Source: Halocatena salina
GTDB taxonomy: Archaea > Halobacteriota > Halobacteria > Halobacteriales > Haloarculaceae
Assembly (NCBI RefSeq): GCF_023115355.1
Contig: NZ_CP096019.1
Span: 62,001-126,000 of the forward strand
Length of the DNA stretch: 64,000 nt
Direction: 5' to 3'
Made by a program: the position numbers and the translations under genes
Notes under the pieces: model-generated
What the model saw: the letters and a program-made list of their open reading frames with translations, nothing else
Told to the model about the DNA's origin: nothing
Database searches by the model: none
Shown here: positions 5,382 to 13,263 of the stretch, piece after piece
Layout: the number at the start of each line of letters is the position of its first letter
How positions within the stretch are numbered: the stretch's first letter is position 1

Positions 5382-6335
5382 CTACCAGCGCTGCTGTCTG
5401 GGTAAGAAATACCAGACGGCGACGACGACGAGCGCTACCAGAATGAGACCACTGGCCAAGCGCAAGAGAAAGTCGAGTGGCGAAGTGGATCCCGAGGAAT
5501 CCGCTCTGTCACCACCAGTCGACGACTGTGCGGAATCGGCTCCTGCACCGTCCGTTGATTGGGTATGGGTTGTGTTTCCAGCCGCTGTGGTAATTGGAGT
5601 TCCCGTGGCCGCACCACCTATCGGCGTCGGCTGAGTAACTGTCGGCGTTCCAGCACCAGTGTTCTGGCCAGTGACATTCCTCCCATTGATGTATACGAGT
5701 GCTTGTTGATCGATCGATGTCACAGTCGCGTTGCCAGTGAAATAGAACGAATCGTACTGATCAGTGAGCTGACCCTGAATCTGTGTCCCATTCGCTCCAC
5801 CCAGTACTGTCGTCTGATCCTGATTCTCGGTGGATTCTCCCGGTGTAGCGTCACCAGTGACTGTGATTTCGTAGTTGATGGGACTGCCGTTCGAGGAGTT
5901 CGAACGTACGATCTGGAGATGGTTGCCCGAAAGTATTGCGGGTGAAATCTCCTGCCCACCGAGTCGTAACTGGAGATCGTCGCCCCGGTGTTGGAACGAG
6001 TCGATGTAGCCGGTGTACGTCACCGTGTCTGTGGTATCGTCAGTCGTATTGTCCCATGGAACGCCCCCGACCCGACCGCTCAGTGTTCTGCCCTGAATAG
6101 CATCGCCCTCATCCGTTTCGCCAGAGATGTTCTCTGTCGCCGAAATGGTGTATTGGACGGGATCACCCGTGGTTTCGACGATCAGCGTGTGCTCGTCACT
6201 GATATTTTGTGTGGCAGCAGATTGATTACTCATCGTAACTGGACTCGCCGGCATAGCTAGTCCGGAAAGAATAACTGCTCCGATGATGATGAACGACAGC
6301 GATCGGGTATAGTCGAGATCATGTACTGATAACAT
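5382..6335 (-). CDS. Secreted, C-terminally membrane-anchored hypothetical protein
   Basis: This 317-residue protein has an N-terminal hydrophobic segment (residues about 12-32, LSFIIIGAVILSGLAMPASP) that should be a signal peptide or anchor. The extracellular region is rich in Asn-X-Ser/Thr sites and beta-strand-like sequence. A low-complexity Thr/Gly/Ser/Asp linker spans about 225-285. A C-terminal membrane helix (FLLRLASGLILVALVVVAVWYFL) is followed by a short basic tail (RQQRW). This layout is usual for haloarchaeal surface proteins that are glycosylated in the linker. No catalytic motif or named domain is recognised. It is transcribed away from the lactonase gene (convergent ends) and is not obviously linked to it. 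Confidence 0.75.
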   Translation of the reverse strand: MLSVHDLDYTRSLSFIIIGAVILSGLAMPASPVTMSNQSAATQNISDEHTLIVETTGDPVQYTISATENISGETDEGDAIQGRTLSGRVGGVPWDNTTDDTTDTVTYTGYIDSFQHRGDDLQLRLGGQEISPAILSGNHLQIVRSNSSNGSPINYEITVTGDATPGESTENQDQTTVLGGANGTQIQGQLTDQYDSFYFTGNATVTSIDQQALVYINGRNVTGQNTGAGTPTVTQPTPIGGAATGTPITTAAGNTTHTQSTDGAGADSAQSSTGGDRADSSGSTSPLDFLLRLASGLILVALVVVAVWYFLPRQQRW

Positions 6336-6451
6336 CGTATTACAGCCGTTGTCAATAATATAGCACCCATTTAATTATAATTTACCGATTATATATCACT
6401 ATTGTACTCGAGAGAATATTCGGGAGATCACTGTCGTGACGTCGGATCGTG

Positions 6452-7666
6452 CTAAGTGGATTCTTGTAACAACTGCTCGAGATTCATCGGTGTAGGCGTC
6501 GGCTCAGGCGGATCGTCAGTCGAGGTATCCTGCGATTCTGCCAACTGGAGCTCGATCTCTCGGAGGCGGTCCTGCCCCGATTTGATCGCGTTTGAACCGT
6601 ACGTGTTGCCTTTTACGCGTACATCTGCCTGATTAGGAAAGAGAACGACATCACCTATAGCGTCCGATTCGCCCCCATCTATCTGCTCAGCGCACCAATT
6701 GTTGCAAAAGCGAGCATATTCTTCCGGATAGCCTTGGATGGAAAACGCTGGATATGTGGTCAGTTTGAACACATTATGGTGTATATTAACAAATGTGCCG
6801 GCCACCATGCCAAGACCGGACTTACCGAGATGGTCGAGATTTTCACCAAGATAATGCATATCAAATGCGTGTAAAATCGCGTTCGGTCCGATGAGGTTAA
6901 ACCGGGCTTCGTACCCGCTGGTTGGATAGCCAAATCCGGCGATGGAGTGACGGTTGTAATCGAAGGTGTTCCACTCGATCAGATGCAGTCCGTTGTACAG
7001 CTCCATCGGATATCCGAGGTGATTCATCTGATTGTGGTGCATCAAATTGTGATGAATCCACCCCTGCGTGTATTTGGTTTCCGCTCCGAGAGCAATGCCA
7101 GCGAACGTCCAACCGAACACTTCACAGTGATCGACGATTGCGGTCTGTCCTTGAAAATTGAAACCGAGTGCTGCGAAATCTTCTTCGTCTTTATTGTTTT
7201 GCCATGGCTCGAAGTTATCCGTTCGCGGTCCCTTCAGTCGAAGGCCAGTGATCCGGCACCCGCCGGTATCGTTGATAAAAATCCCTTTGTCGTAGCCATC
7301 CGTTTTGATCAATCCACCATTCTGGCTGTTCAAATGTCGATCACTGGCGATCGTCACGTTCGGCGCGACGGGTGCGTTGACAACGCCCGTCATGTCGATC
7401 GTGACTGAGTTGGGGATCCACACCGTTGCTTCAGGAACACGAATCGCTTGAAGAAGAGAGGACCGATCCGTGGCAACCTGTGTTGCCATCTCCCGTGTCA
7501 CACGGTGTTGCTGGGACGCAAACTCCATCGACGGATAGTTTCCTTCCCCGCTGCCACCGCTGGTCCACATCGACAGACAGCCACTAACTGACGACATCCC
7601 GACCGTTCCGGCAGTTCCGACAGCTGTGAGAAATCGACGCCTGTTAATCGGCTTTTTAGCGCTCAT
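6452..7666 (-). CDS. Tat lipoprotein with right-handed beta-helix fold
   Basis: The 404-residue protein starts with a twin-arginine signal (INRRRFLTAVG) and a lipobox (SVSGC), so it should be exported folded and lipid-anchored outside the membrane. Residues about 80-360 carry repeated short strands with Asn/His ladders, for example IVDHCEVFGWTF, WIHHNLMHHNQMNHLGY and FVNIHHNVFKLT. These are typical of parallel beta-helix proteins such as pectate-lyase-like enzymes and carbohydrate-binding surface proteins. A Pro/Thr-rich tail ends the protein. The many His residues (for example HHNLMHHN) could bind metal. It is divergent from the transfer-like cluster at 8.0-13.3 kb across a 370-base spacer, and a link between them is only possible. 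Confidence 0.75.
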   Translation of the reverse strand: MSAKKPINRRRFLTAVGTAGTVGMSSVSGCLSMWTSGGSGEGNYPSMEFASQQHRVTREMATQVATDRSSLLQAIRVPEATVWIPNSVTIDMTGVVNAPVAPNVTIASDRHLNSQNGGLIKTDGYDKGIFINDTGGCRITGLRLKGPRTDNFEPWQNNKDEEDFAALGFNFQGQTAIVDHCEVFGWTFAGIALGAETKYTQGWIHHNLMHHNQMNHLGYPMELYNGLHLIEWNTFDYNRHSIAGFGYPTSGYEARFNLIGPNAILHAFDMHYLGENLDHLGKSGLGMVAGTFVNIHHNVFKLTTYPAFSIQGYPEEYARFCNNWCAEQIDGGESDAIGDVVLFPNQADVRVKGNTYGSNAIKSGQDRLREIELQLAESQDTSTDDPPEPTPTPMNLEQLLQEST

Positions 7667-8039
7667 ATTGGTAATGAATCAAGCTGGAAGTATCGAGTCA
7701 CGGTTCCAGACTGCAATAAACGTGATATGATGTGGATATCGATAAGGATTTTACTGTACACTATCAGACTATCATACGTAGCCATGTCGTTTCACGCTCC
7801 CACTGGGAATACGCCTGGTGATCGATGTTTCGCTCATCTCGTTTTCGTATGTAACGATACCTTCCAATCTGGCATAAATCTATGCTGATGAAACACTCTA
7901 TTGTATTATCTGTAACAAGTATCTACGGTTTGTCGCATTATCATCGTTTAGAACAGAATCTACATCGTTATAATAAATAACCTTTATGGTGCTCTTTCCG
8001 GTACTTTTTTATACCCTCACTCTAATATTAACTCATATC
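7667..8039. other. AT-rich divergent spacer before the secretion-like cluster
   Basis: This 373-base gap lies between the divergent beta-helix gene and the pilin-like gene. It is AT-rich, with several TATA-like stretches such as TTATAATAAA at 7967-7976. An in-frame ATG at 7986 would extend the pilin-like protein by 18 hydrophobic residues, but the promoter position argues against it. No RNA gene or repeat is seen. Confidence 0.4.
8008..8013 (+). promoter_or_regulatory. TATA-like box for the pilin-like gene
   Basis: TTTATA within a T-run is centred about 29 bases before the ATG at 8040. This is the correct distance for a leaderless archaeal transcript. It is the main reason for preferring the 8040 start over the ATG at 7986. 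Confidence 0.4.
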
Positions 8040-8513
8040 ATGATCAAAAAGACGCCTCTGTCAAGGCATATGAAAAGTGCCAGAAACGTTATCAGTAGTA
8101 TTACCCATAAAGTTATACGAATCGTTACGCAGCCGGGTCGCCACGACCTGTATCTATCGATGGGTGCCGTAGCGTTGTTCCTCGCTCCTCTGTATGCGAC
8201 ACCAGTTTCGGCTCAGATAGGAGTTTCAGAAGCCGAACAAGTGTTGTGTGATGGCTCGGCAGGAGTCAATATCGCACAGATCATTACAGTAGGGTTAGGA
8301 TTGATCTCTATGTATTTCATATTGAAATTCCTCTTCCGGATGATGACCGGTCTCGATAAAGCCGGCAGCACTGATTCCGGAGCACAAGCCCAAGGGAAAC
8401 AGGAAGCGAAAGGTGGCATCTACTCGCTCGTAGCGGCGCTTCTTCCCGTTCTCGTACCTGTCTTCCTGAACACAGCAGGTATCGACGTCGCTTCATGCCT
8501 GTTCCCAACATAA
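8040..8513 (+). CDS. Small VirB2/CedA1-like pilin candidate
   Basis: The 157-residue protein has a long basic N-terminal extension and a hydrophobic signal core (LYLSMGAVALFLAPLYA, about 38-54). A consensus signal-peptidase site follows in TPVSA at about residue 58. The predicted mature chain is about 100 residues. It has two hydrophobic helices (about 76-100 and 126-146) joined by a short polar loop rich in Lys, Gln and Gly. A cysteine sits before the first helix (Cys70) and another after the second (Cys153). This architecture is that of VirB2/TrbC pilins and their archaeal relatives CedA1 and TedC. It is followed 13 bases later by a VirB6-like gene and then a VirB4-like ATPase gene. Identity as a pilin is inferred from architecture and neighbours, not from a sequence match. 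Confidence 0.65.
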   Translation: MIKKTPLSRHMKSARNVISSITHKVIRIVTQPGRHDLYLSMGAVALFLAPLYATPVSAQIGVSEAEQVLCDGSAGVNIAQIITVGLGLISMYFILKFLFRMMTGLDKAGSTDSGAQAQGKQEAKGGIYSLVAALLPVLVPVFLNTAGIDVASCLFPT

Positions 8514-8526
8514 AGGAGGGATCGCC

Positions 8527-9978
8527 GTGATGCATGCTAGTACCCGTCATATAGTCGTGTTACTCTGTCTTATCTGCTTGTGTGGAGTTGCGAATCCCAT
8601 CGTCGGCGCTCCAACTGGGCCTGACGGTTCATTGTCGACGGGTGCTCAGCACCAAGCGAGTCAACAGACAGGAGGAAACGTTTTCGCTTCGTTTTTCACT
8701 GTTCATGAAATGGCGCAACCGGACTCCGGAACGAACCGTCTCGGTGGACCATCCGGTGACGATATCTACCCCCAAGAGGACGACAAGGATGAGGAAGACT
8801 ATACGATAAAGATCGGGCCTGTCGACGTCGATATTGGGGAAATAATCCGAAAGACGTTCGAATTCACCGCTAGTCTGACGATCGATATGATCGAATTGGG
8901 GATCAATACGTTCAACGACTACATCATAGGGGTACCCGCGCCGGGGAATCCGACCGAGGTATCCACGTGGATATCGGCGGAAAACCCATGGCCGGCCGTC
9001 TACGGTGTCTATGGGATCATGACGACGGTGGCGATCGCCCTGTTGACACCTTCATTTATGGTTGCGACGGACACAGTCGATCCTCAACAACGACGCGAGC
9101 GGTGGCTCGAACTCGGCAAGGCAGCGTTTTTCATCCTACTCGGTATTCCCGTGGTTGCGTTCTGTCTCCATCTCGGAAACGAACTCATACAAGCGATCGC
9201 TCCGAGTGGATACGAATTCATATCATCCACAGCCGGCGTTTCGGACCTCAGTCTCGGACTTCTGTTCGGAGTATTACTCGTCTGGGCTAAAGGCACTATC
9301 GTCGGAATCGGTCTCATAATCGCTATTATGATATATATGTCTGTTTTTATTTTGGTTGCATTTTGGCCGCTCTTTTGGGCGCTTCGTGTGCAGCCACAGT
9401 CTGATCTACAATCGTACGGTACTGTTGGTATTTCCATGCTCCCCTTGATTATTCTATTACGATTCACCCAAAGCGGCATCCTTCGACTCCTTCATCAGTT
9501 GCCCTACGATAGTCTTGGGGATTTGGCGATCAAGGTAATAGCGATAGTCGCCGGTCTTTCGATCGCATTGATCGGATTACCGTACGTATTCGTCACGAAA
9601 CTATTTCCGAGAACGATCATCCTTCCCAGTGGAAGATCTCCGTTCAACTCCGGTGGTGGTGGTCCTCCTGGCGGACCGGGGGGGCCACCTGGAGGTTCCG
9701 GCGGGGGATACACGGGACAACAGCAGCAGTGGGCTAACAGCCCCGGCGGGTACAAACAGCCCGGCGCAACGAGCGAAACGCCCACTAGTCGACCATCGTT
9801 CGATGCTAACAATCAAAGAAATGTCGTTGGAACGACAGGGAGTTCTCCGAGAAGGGGATCTTCTCGGTATGGGACCACCAGTCGTAGTGCCCAGCCCGAT
9901 TCCAGCGACGAGGACGACATCTCCGAAGAAACAGAGGACGAGCAGATCGGGGCAACAAGTGAGAGGCCTGGCCGGTAA
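8527..9978 (+). CDS. VirB6/CedA-like polytopic membrane protein
   Basis: This 483-residue protein has an N-terminal signal segment (residues about 8-27) and an acidic extracellular stretch with a DDKDEEDY patch. About six membrane helices follow between 158 and 356. The C-terminal tail is cytoplasmic-like, with a Gly/Pro-rich linker (about 376-396) and a hydrophilic, finally acidic end. That layout resembles VirB6/TrbL and CedA channel proteins of type IV systems. AAAGGAGGGA at 8511-8520 is a strong Shine-Dalgarno match, just before GTG at 8527 and ATG at 8530. Either could be the start. It stands 13 bases after the pilin-like gene and 84 before the ATPase gene. The channel role is inferred from topology and context. 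Confidence 0.7.
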   Translation: MMHASTRHIVVLLCLICLCGVANPIVGAPTGPDGSLSTGAQHQASQQTGGNVFASFFTVHEMAQPDSGTNRLGGPSGDDIYPQEDDKDEEDYTIKIGPVDVDIGEIIRKTFEFTASLTIDMIELGINTFNDYIIGVPAPGNPTEVSTWISAENPWPAVYGVYGIMTTVAIALLTPSFMVATDTVDPQQRRERWLELGKAAFFILLGIPVVAFCLHLGNELIQAIAPSGYEFISSTAGVSDLSLGLLFGVLLVWAKGTIVGIGLIIAIMIYMSVFILVAFWPLFWALRVQPQSDLQSYGTVGISMLPLIILLRFTQSGILRLLHQLPYDSLGDLAIKVIAIVAGLSIALIGLPYVFVTKLFPRTIILPSGRSPFNSGGGGPPGGPGGPPGGSGGGYTGQQQQWANSPGGYKQPGATSETPTSRPSFDANNQRNVVGTTGSSPRRGSSRYGTTSRSAQPDSSDEDDISEETEDEQIGATSERPGR

Positions 9979-10062
9979 GTGTCCATACTATTAAGTGAGA
10001 TACCGGCTATTTATTGGGGAGAGCGGTAGTAATCCAAATACACAGCAAGTACACGATCAACA

Positions 10063-13000
10063 ATGAGTACGAACTCACAGAGCTCGAATACACAATCGAA
10101 TCAGACTGGCTTGATACTACCATATGTTGACACGGATGTGACGATCAAAGGTGCCGTAACGCTCGATAACATCTACTCGTTCGCCGTTCCGGTCGCAACA
10201 CTGATCATCGCGTTACTAGCATGGTCGATCGATGCCACGATAGTCGCCGTCGTTTCGTTTGCGATTACTCTCGTCGTATTGCCAATAATACTGTATCTTG
10301 CGTACACCAATCCGTACTATCTCTCCTCGCGAGAGCGGATCGAACGGTTTATCGAATCGCGTCGTCTGCAACAGAAGTTCCCCTATCACTATCACGAAAC
10401 CCTAGGACGACAAATACACGGGGTAGAACGTTTGTATCCGGATGGAACTGCTAAGATGACCGATGGTCGCCGCGTCGGTCTCATCGGTGTCAAAGGGATG
10501 AATGCCTGTCGGATCACGTCCCAAGAGGCCCAAACCTACGTTGGGGCACTCACGAGCGGTATCGACGAACAGATCAAGGACATCCCATTTTCCATATACG
10601 CAACATCAGACACGTTCGAGACGGAGCAGTTGATCGAGCATATAACGGAGTGTGTCGAAGAAAGTGAACGGACGGACCAATCCCTCGCGGGCACAGCTCG
10701 GGCGGAAGAGTACATCATGGAGCTGTTGCTCGACGTTTCCTCGTGGTTCGTCGAGACGGAATCACCCAAATGGGATGCCAACGAGTGGGAGTATTACGTG
10801 GTTGTCGAGGTCAGTCCCGAGGACGTCGCTGCCGGGTCAAGAGTTACCGATTCGAACAACTCCGGACTGTTTGGGATGTTCTCATCGACCGACAACACCG
10901 AAGAAAATCAAGCACTGGACTCGGAACTGCGCGCAGAGCTCGACGATCGAATGAGTACTATTCAAGGCGCGCTCGCTTCGGTAGAAGGGATCGACAGCGG
11001 TCGAGCAGGCGTCCTCGATCACGCCCGTCTGCTGTTACGGTACTGGTCGGGAGAGCCGTCACTATCTCTCGGAACGGAAGTGAGAGAAGCGATGGCAAAC
11101 GACGATAACCGAGTCAGCGTCGGGGAAACCCCGACCGAACGCATGCTCACTCCAAGCGAGCTCGATTCCCAAGACGGCCGTATCATGGTCGGAGACGAAC
11201 TCTGTAAAACGTTCTGTATCATGGGATGGCCGGTCGAACCGCCACCGTTGTTCCTCGGAGACCTATTCACCATGCGAAAGGCGAACGTCGATGTTCGTGT
11301 TCACGTCGAGCCGGAGTACAAGCAGCGGTCGATCGAGGAACTCGAACGGCTGTACGCCGATGTCGAATCCGAGGAGATGGAGCGCGCCCAGAACATGGAC
11401 GCAAGTAAGATACAGATCCAAAACGACAAGGACGCGGTCCGGAAGATGTATCTGCTCCTCCGAAACACGACTGCTCAACCGTGGCAAGTGAGCATGTACG
11501 TAACGGTTCGGGTCGGACCGGAGGAGGCATACGAGTACGCCCAACAGATGGGTCGGGAAACGGAGAATCTGTATCTGGCGAAGGTTCGAGCACTCGAAGA
11601 CGCCTGTGACGATGTCCTCGAAGTGCTGACGAGCGCACCCGCTGGATTGGGTCCTCGTCAGCCCAGTTCCGATATGTCTGCACTTGATATGTTCGAATCG
11701 TCATCTCCGACTGGAGCGGATCTCTACCACGAGAAAGGCGACAAACCCAAGCGAACACGAATGCTCGGCGGGGCGATCGCGGCGATGTTCCCGTGGTGTG
11801 CTGGTGTCATGCAAGAACCTGGTGGGTTGCGATTCGGACGGAACAAACAGAACGGGTCGGCCATCTTCGCGGATCCGTTCGAGCGCGGTGCTCCACACCT
11901 TCTCACACTGGGACAGACCCGTTCAGGAAAAACGTACTCGGTCGAAACGGCACTCGCAGAATGGTACTGTTCGGATCCTTCTCGGACGCTCATCGTCTGT
12001 GACACTGAACAAGGATTTGAAGGTCTCACCCAGCTCTGTGGTGGGAAACACATCGTCGTTGACGGCCAACAGACGATCAATCCATTCGATATCCAACGTC
12101 CACCAAAGCGCATCCGGGAATCGAGCGTCGGGGAGTCGAACCACTTCCAAATGAAAATCGATGAGGTCACGAGTTTCTTTGCCGGAATCCTCAGGGCACA
12201 GGGGATCGATCCATCCGGATACATTTCCACCATCGAAGACGCGGTCCAAGAAACGTACGAATCGATCGGGATCACCCACGATCCAGATACCCACGACAAG
12301 GCAAGCCCAACCATCGAGGATTTCGTCTCGGTGCTCGAACGAATGTTGAACACGCCCGAGCGCTTTACCTTCACCGGTCACGAGCGCGAGGCCGAACAGC
12401 GCGTTCGCGTCGTTTCTGATCTCCTCGATAAACTCAGTGGATTCAAAGAGAACCGGAAATACCACCATATGGTCGGTGAAACCGAGACCGGCATTCTCGA
12501 CCGGGAAACGGACATGGTGTACATCGATCTCAGTCAGTTCAATGAGGCATCCGAAGCCGAAAAGTCCGTCATGCTCCACCTGATTTTCGGACAGGTTTAT
12601 CAGAAGGTCAAACGGACCCAAGGAGAGATCATCTTCCTGATCGACGAGGCCCACTTCCTGCTCCACAGCGAAGAGATGATCGAATATTTGCAGGACGCAG
12701 CTCGGAGCTGGGCGCGATACGACGCGGCATTGTGGTTCGTAACCCAATCACCGCGTGAGTTCATCGAACGCGCACAGTCGATCGGCGAGGGCCAGGAGAA
12801 CCAGCGCCGGACTATCTTGGACCAGTGTTCGACCATCCAGACGTTCCGCACGCCTCGGATCGAACCGGAACTGCTCATGGAGGGACTGGGTCAGAACCGA
12901 AATCAAGCCGACTTCGTCAGGAACTCCGCCGTCACCGGCAGCTCGGAACGTCAGTATTCGGAGTGTCTCATCCATTTCCAAGACCGAGAAGGATGGTGGG

Positions 13001-13263
13001 AGAGCCACATCGAAGCCAGCCCCTTCGAGGATCTCGTCTGGAACTACGCGGGTCGCAAACACGGCGACTTCGACCGGTATCTCAGAACGAACTGGAGCGG
13101 TCTGTCCACGTCATCGGATTCGTCTCTCAACGACCAATCGCCACAATCGTCAGACACTCCCGAACAGGAACCGTCTGAGGGTCGTGAAGAAAGCGTAACG
13201 ACTACGTTGGGGCCATCAACCCCAGCGAACGGCGAGCTCGACGATCAGTCGTCTAATCAGTGA
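10063..13263 (+). CDS. VirB4-family (VirB3-VirB4 fusion-like) secretion ATPase
   Basis: The 1066-residue protein has two membrane helices near the N-terminus (about 36-54 and 57-81), as in VirB3/PrgI-type domains. A long central VirB4/TraC-like region follows, then a HerA/FtsK-class ATPase domain. Walker A is GQTRSGKT at residues 617-624 and Walker B is IIFLIDEAH with Asp861 and Glu862. VTQSP at about 900 is the likely sensor motif. VirB4 ATPases form hexamers at the membrane that drive pilus assembly and substrate transfer in type IV systems and in archaeal Ced/Ted DNA import. The hydrophilic Ser/Gln/Glu-rich tail after residue 1010 is variable. A TATTTATTGG box at about 10005-10014 may give the gene its own promoter. 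The family call is firm; the cargo is unknown. Confidence 0.9.
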   Translation: MSTNSQSSNTQSNQTGLILPYVDTDVTIKGAVTLDNIYSFAVPVATLIIALLAWSIDATIVAVVSFAITLVVLPIILYLAYTNPYYLSSRERIERFIESRRLQQKFPYHYHETLGRQIHGVERLYPDGTAKMTDGRRVGLIGVKGMNACRITSQEAQTYVGALTSGIDEQIKDIPFSIYATSDTFETEQLIEHITECVEESERTDQSLAGTARAEEYIMELLLDVSSWFVETESPKWDANEWEYYVVVEVSPEDVAAGSRVTDSNNSGLFGMFSSTDNTEENQALDSELRAELDDRMSTIQGALASVEGIDSGRAGVLDHARLLLRYWSGEPSLSLGTEVREAMANDDNRVSVGETPTERMLTPSELDSQDGRIMVGDELCKTFCIMGWPVEPPPLFLGDLFTMRKANVDVRVHVEPEYKQRSIEELERLYADVESEEMERAQNMDASKIQIQNDKDAVRKMYLLLRNTTAQPWQVSMYVTVRVGPEEAYEYAQQMGRETENLYLAKVRALEDACDDVLEVLTSAPAGLGPRQPSSDMSALDMFESSSPTGADLYHEKGDKPKRTRMLGGAIAAMFPWCAGVMQEPGGLRFGRNKQNGSAIFADPFERGAPHLLTLGQTRSGKTYSVETALAEWYCSDPSRTLIVCDTEQGFEGLTQLCGGKHIVVDGQQTINPFDIQRPPKRIRESSVGESNHFQMKIDEVTSFFAGILRAQGIDPSGYISTIEDAVQETYESIGITHDPDTHDKASPTIEDFVSVLERMLNTPERFTFTGHEREAEQRVRVVSDLLDKLSGFKENRKYHHMVGETETGILDRETDMVYIDLSQFNEASEAEKSVMLHLIFGQVYQKVKRTQGEIIFLIDEAHFLLHSEEMIEYLQDAARSWARYDAALWFVTQSPREFIERAQSIGEGQENQRRTILDQCSTIQTFRTPRIEPELLMEGLGQNRNQADFVRNSAVTGSSERQYSECLIHFQDREGWWESHIEASPFEDLVWNYAGRKHGDFDRYLRTNWSGLSTSSDSSLNDQSPQSSDTPEQEPSEGREESVTTTLGPSTPANGELDDQSSNQ

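Follow-up and report, generated by a model that had tools for sequence, protein, structure and literature searches.

A gene cassette in a 64,000-nucleotide stretch of Halocatena salina DNA (contig NZ_CP096019.1, positions 62,001 to 126,000; hereafter the window, in whose own numbering coordinates are given) is read here, with a confidence only just above even, as the core of a type IV secretion system (T4SS) from haloarchaeal conjugative plasmids, which would have lost its dedicated coupling protein, become a fixed chromosomal trait of the genus Halocatena/Actinarchaeum, and come to transfer DNA in the manner of Ced and Ted. The latter are described as T4SS derivatives that have been domesticated and that have homologs of VirB2, VirB6, and VirB4 (PMC9905601; PMC11868833), and they appear to have taken the same route independently in Thermoproteota. 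The host genus includes hypha- and spore-forming haloarchaea (PMC10067837). At the center of the cassette lie three plus-strand genes (8040-13263) for a candidate pilin, a membrane channel, and an ATPase, and the unit as a whole consists of five genes, not three.

The three core genes and their products

The three plus-strand genes were proposed in a sequence-only reading of the window, and their reading frames are intact at the coordinates given there. The VirB2, VirB6, and VirB4 families occur together and in the same order at about 20 loci, which is beyond chance, and the ATPase gene, whose occurrence with unrelated neighbors elsewhere had been named as a point that would speak against the proposal, keeps the same partners at its loci.

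The ATPase gene (10063-13263; 1066 amino acids, aa) is assigned by profile and PDB matches to the VirB4 family. Among the matches of its product are the NCBIfam VirB4 families for conjugative elements of Firmicutes and mycoplasma (3e-32 and 6e-25), F-type TraC, and VirB4_CagE, and the profile of its own family matches the solved VirB4-like protein 4ag5 at 4.6e-16; with the NCBIfam CedB model NF041017 it scores 13.7 bits, far below the cut-off of 700. The P-loop_TraG family gave no match in the window genome. Walker A (GQTRSGKT, residues 617-624) and Walker B (IIFLIDEAH) are both intact, with core residues that do not vary among 20 relatives. Of the VirB3-VirB4 fusion with intact Walker motifs that had been claimed, the VirB4 part and the motifs hold up, the VirB3 part being an N-terminal hairpin of two hydrophobic helices (residues 34-84) that resembles a fused VirB3 in topology only.

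The channel gene (8527-9978; 483 aa), with a GGAGG ribosome-binding site just upstream, encodes a polytopic, VirB6/TedA-like membrane protein that is modeled by AlphaFold2 from 19 homologs as a signal peptide, a confident helical membrane domain (residues 103-360), and a disordered tail. The four best of 986 chains aligned with the model are VirB6-family channels, namely three entries of R388 TrwI (Z 9.1, 9.0, and 8.9; root-mean-square deviation (rmsd) 5.9-6.0 over 218-224 residues) and Legionella DotA (Z 8.1, the next row standing at Z 5.6), values in a range where helical bundles can match by common arrangement, with the top rows all from T4SSs. Foldseek alone placed TrwI at ranks 1, 2, and 3 among 350,542 chains, and five distant relatives of the protein match Pfam TrbL_3/VirB6 (best 3.8e-28); the VirB6 alignment, used in a profile search of the PDB, returned chance hits only. 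By its predicted fold, the product is confirmed as a VirB6-type channel, an identity that the sequence-only reading would have given up had fold prediction shown no structural likeness to VirB6 or CedA.

The pilin precursor gene (8040-8513; 157 aa), an intact open reading frame (ORF), encodes a VirB2/TedC-like protein; common features of its homologs are a signal peptide, a conserved site for cleavage ahead of Gln, and two hydrophobic helices. Predicted cleavage before Q59 would leave a mature protein of about 99 aa, and Cys70 and Cys153 are invariant across 16 homologs. Pfam T4SS_pilin is matched by eight of the 16 (best 1e-4), with the window protein below the curated cut-off. The structural model (predicted local distance difference test score, pLDDT, 67.6) has, beyond the signal peptide, one short helix and two long ones, and it aligns with the conjugation pilus of Aeropyrum pernix at Z 6.2 (rmsd 3.7 over 74 residues, 16 percent identity), a comparison in which two-helix hairpins match many things and the A. 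pernix pilus stands among other hairpins; a Foldseek search with the model gave unrelated matches only, at E above 3. The claimed architecture, two helices behind a signal peptide, is thus borne out, and position and architecture suggest a VirB2-type pilin provisionally, the T4SS_pilin matches and the A. pernix pilus pointing the same way.

A five-gene chromosomal cassette

Just upstream of the pilin gene, and divergent from it, lie two minus-strand genes (together 5382-7666) that were left out when the cluster was described as a minimal set of three. One (6452-7666; 404 aa) encodes a Tat-signal lipoprotein, probably a right-handed beta-helix, with an RRRFL Tat motif, an SGC lipobox, weak Beta_helix matches, and many invariant residues; the other (5382-6335; 317 aa) encodes a stalked surface protein with an N-terminal signal peptide, a Thr/Pro-rich stalk, and a single C-terminal transmembrane helix. 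In every chromosomal locus of the genus, and on several plasmids too, both adjoin the trio, and the pair is found within ~15 kb of 12 of the 14 VirB4 loci in seven genomes, a count that leaves out a duplicate assembly. A relative of the beta-helix lipoprotein also adjoins the trio on plasmid 4 of Halalkalicoccus jeotgali; the family has unlinked paralogs in these genomes as well. In Halocatena marina the five genes form one group near secY-rpl15, a different place on the chromosome, with hflX elsewhere; the cassette has therefore been kept whole while its flanks differ. At Halomarina loci a beta-helix protein and a DUF7282 protein occupy the same divergent place, yet profile comparison found no homology to the accessory proteins, the likeness being one of architecture only.

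VirB4 is encoded on a large contig of all seven genus genomes (77 to 93 percent identity), six of which are independent, two sharing the same contig, and the cassette is chromosomal in every one. Its location is not that of a mobile replicon or integrated element: in five of the six independent genomes it is flanked by hflX-SBDS-psmA-RNase P, a core archaeal neighborhood. The closest VirB4 forms outside the genus are those of Halorientalis (four of eight genomes, ~45 percent), and any relative of VirB6 was found in 41 of 392 sampled genomes of the order; a search of IMG/VR with VirB6 found none. The cassette is under purifying selection, with ratios of nonsynonymous to synonymous substitution rates (dN/dS) against H. 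pleomorpha of 0.072 for VirB4, 0.127 for VirB2, 0.211 for VirB6, and 0.081 and 0.207 for the two surface proteins, next to 0.04 to 0.13 for the flanking genes.

The DNA upstream of the pilin gene is poorly conserved between genomes, save for an 18-bp box near the start, CGGTACTTTTTTATACCC (7999-8016, plus strand), in which GGTA-N8-TACC surrounds a TATA-like element. The box is identical in all seven genomes and occurs once in each, with no further site at up to 2 mismatches. Given the TATA-like core within GGTA-N8-TACC, CGGTACTTTTTTATACCC may serve as promoter and operator together, and its distance to the ATG at 8040 would fit a leaderless pilin transcript. As the box sits between two candidate ATGs in all seven genomes, the start at 8040, which the sequence-only reading had chosen, is better supported than that of the longer ORF at 7986. 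Halorientalis pilin genes carry a different conserved palindrome upstream, TATGCTAAGGGGGGTTTAGCATA, in four genomes (loci L045, L049, L027, and L028), a possible operator or RNA stem.

Plasmid relatives, coupling proteins, and known systems

Many haloarchaeal plasmids bear the same trio followed, directly after VirB4, by a large VirD4-like gene that is annotated on several of them as T4SS DNA-binding protein or VirD4. These modules ("transfer complex protein"; e.g., Haloferax gibbonsii pHGLR3 and plasmids of Halocatena marina and Actinarchaeum) share with the cassette the VirB2-VirB6-VirB4 order, a VirB4 that is ~26 to 36 percent identical, and often the beta-helix and stalk genes, whereas the VirD4-like gene and the location on plasmids or accessory replicons set them apart. 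No coupling protein stands beside the cassette in the chromosomal locus of any genus member, and a search of the window genome found no homolog of the plasmid-type coupler. The claim that no VirD4 is visible is correct for the window but not for the genome, where four TrwB_AAD_bind-domain proteins are encoded elsewhere. The relaxase family PF03432, the one such family searched, has no match in the genome; archaeal conjugative plasmids are reported to lack recognizable relaxases (PMC12857230). The accompanying argument against a conjugative element gains support from genus-wide chromosomal conservation and from the missing adjacent coupling protein.

TrwB-like genes vary across the genus chromosomes, occurring as two types and being absent from the main contigs of G039 and G044. 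A stand-alone TrwB/VirD4-like ATPase gene (~590 aa) lies next to a serA-like gene at the same chromosomal place in two Halocatena genomes (L074:5751-7514, on C1 of the window genome at ~1,013,751-1,015,514, and L077:5663-7471), and a second type is found at L073 and L076. Near the TrwB-like gene at L075 (C5 of the window genome, ~9.7-11.9 kb of the locus), small Cas-like ORFs accompany direct repeats that are CRISPR-like and translate as HSTLETHHGIE.

In the VirB4 tree, the chromosomal clade of the genus (100/100) sits on a long stem apart from the plasmid forms. The Halorientalis chromosomal clade joins (99/97) a locus bearing an integrase, ParA, and a TrwB-type coupler. Among the rows scored, the missing adjacent coupler thus traces to two events, and the chromosomal form in Halorientalis represents a second capture, independent of the first. 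All four Halorientalis genomes have a T2SSE-type pilus ATPase gene ~5 kb upstream of the trio (L026-L029), which may reflect chance or a link to type IV pili such as that of Ups and Ced. In a distant haloarchaeal group (L052, L053, L054, L055, and L059), VirB4 is split into an N-terminal part of ~340 aa and an ATPase part of ~650-700 aa, the two genes adjoining a VirB6 relative in most of those loci. A plasmid of Halorientalis marina (L069, 7680-11060) has a locus that looks truncated: VirB2 and a long VirB6 are present, but of VirB4 there is only a 303-aa fragment, after which comes a Cdc6 gene.

Among characterized systems, Ted of Thermoproteales (TedA/TedB/TedC) is alike in its chromosomal VirB6 and VirB4 homologs, in a VirB2 homolog whose Halocatena counterpart is a candidate, in having no recognized relaxase or coupling protein alongside, and in a pilin signal peptide that in Halocatena is predicted to be cleaved as in TedC (PMC9905601). 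It differs in belonging to another archaeal phylum and in having a pilin with no detected sequence similarity; the Halocatena cassette, for its part, lacks the HerA, Rad50, and ParA genes, has VirB3-like helices fused to VirB4, and includes the beta-helix lipoprotein and stalked surface protein. Ced of Sulfolobales (CedA, CedA1, CedA2, CedB, and CedD) is likewise a simplified, domesticated T4SS of pilin, channel, and ATPase, although the Halocatena cassette has one full-length VirB4 in place of CedB plus CedD and no recognized link to Ups pili. What the Halocatena lineage has kept is a chromosomal VirB2-VirB6-VirB4 set of the Ced/Ted type, with no adjacent coupling protein and with the pilin identity provisional. 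Bacterial T4SSs (R388 TrwI; VirB4 of Firmicutes and mycoplasma elements) share the VirB6 fold and the VirB4 family, but no equivalents of VirB8, VirB10, VirB1, or VirD4 were recognized in the cassette. The fusexin-bearing integrated mobile elements of haloarchaea also have VirB4 and VirD4-like genes (PMC9259645); unlike the cassette, they are mobile and carry XerC/D and fsx1.

The sequence-only reading knew of no named haloarchaeal system with this layout and allowed for relatives in databases. No named haloarchaeal chromosomal system of this kind was found in the literature within reach, which covered Ced, Ted, fusexin elements, and pR1SE-like plasmids but excluded most subscription journals and all supplements, and relatives of the trio proved to be common on plasmids together with a VirD4-like gene. 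The main text of the Actinarchaeum genome paper makes no mention of VirB or conjugation, and the archaeal section of a 2025 review describes conjugative plasmids with VirB4 and VirD4.

Proposed DNA transfer and its alternatives

On this evidence a pilus-based DNA-transfer system is favored, with import somewhat likelier than export, both direction and substrate being our inference. In such a system, the pilin would be exported, cleaved, and inserted in the membrane, VirB4 would build it into a pilus on a VirB6 base, and, on the surface of the cell, the Tat/beta-helix lipoprotein and its membrane-anchored partner may help with contact or open the envelope. The machine would then move DNA between neighboring cells or hyphae, import being favored by analogy with Ced. 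Several points weigh against this picture: a PDB profile search with the pilin alignment gave no match up to E 10, such that no solved pilin was found by sequence; the Z values of the channel are of the size that common helical arrangement can produce; and a DNA repair gene adjoins Ted, whereas none adjoins the Halocatena cluster. In addition, the VirB4 tree and a seven-gene species tree disagree as to whether H. marina or Actinarchaeum branches first, so some transfer within the genus is possible, and the TrwB-domain proteins encoded elsewhere in the genome could act in trans as coupling protein.

The last point bears on the strongest alternative, which we nonetheless consider unlikely: a conjugation or mobilization machine that still serves mobile elements, or the chromosome as donor, and exports DNA with those TrwB/VirD4-like ATPases as its coupler. 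The nearest relatives are indeed plasmid-borne with VirD4, four TrwB-domain proteins are at hand, and the VirB4 of Halorientalis has as its sister the integrase- and ParA-bearing locus with a TrwB-type coupler; yet the chromosomes of the genus do not consistently carry the same TrwB-like genes, the tested relaxase family is unmatched, and the cassette is fixed in a core chromosomal context. Less probable again is a surface pilus for hyphal aggregation or attachment that transports no DNA and replaces a lost type IV pilus system. Such a filament is conceivable given the reported loss of the archaellum and the PilB3 type IV pili in this clade (PMC10067837), and it would suit the surface-exposed beta-helix and stalk proteins linked to the trio and the lack of a coupling protein beside it; however, a purely adhesive filament has no obvious need of a VirB6 channel under selection, and those surface proteins are also found with plasmid forms that do have a coupling protein.

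Protein secretion with an unidentified effector seems very improbable. Bacterial T4SSs without VirD4 can secrete proteins, but the cassette has no conserved toxin or immunity gene, and the two partner proteins have Tat or Sec signals of their own. A decaying remnant of an integrated plasmid, which the existence of plasmid relatives and the missing adjacent coupling protein might suggest, is scarcely credible: dN/dS values of 0.07 to 0.21 show purifying selection and so largely refute decay, and the frames are intact in six independent genomes with an identical promoter box.

The cassette may be, at a likelihood we place somewhat short of even, a third independently domesticated archaeal DNA-exchange machine and, according to our searches, the first chromosomal one in Halobacteria, comprising five genes, two of them for surface proteins, with a lineage-specific promoter, and with a second capture in Halorientalis. 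In the exchange of chromosomal DNA among haloarchaea, cell fusion and bridges have been seen; the host lineage in this case consists of filamentous archaea with a Streptomyces-like life cycle. Together, the fixed chromosomal T4SS core and its coupler-bearing plasmid relatives would form a before-and-after pair for the conversion of a conjugation machine into a cellular DNA-exchange system.

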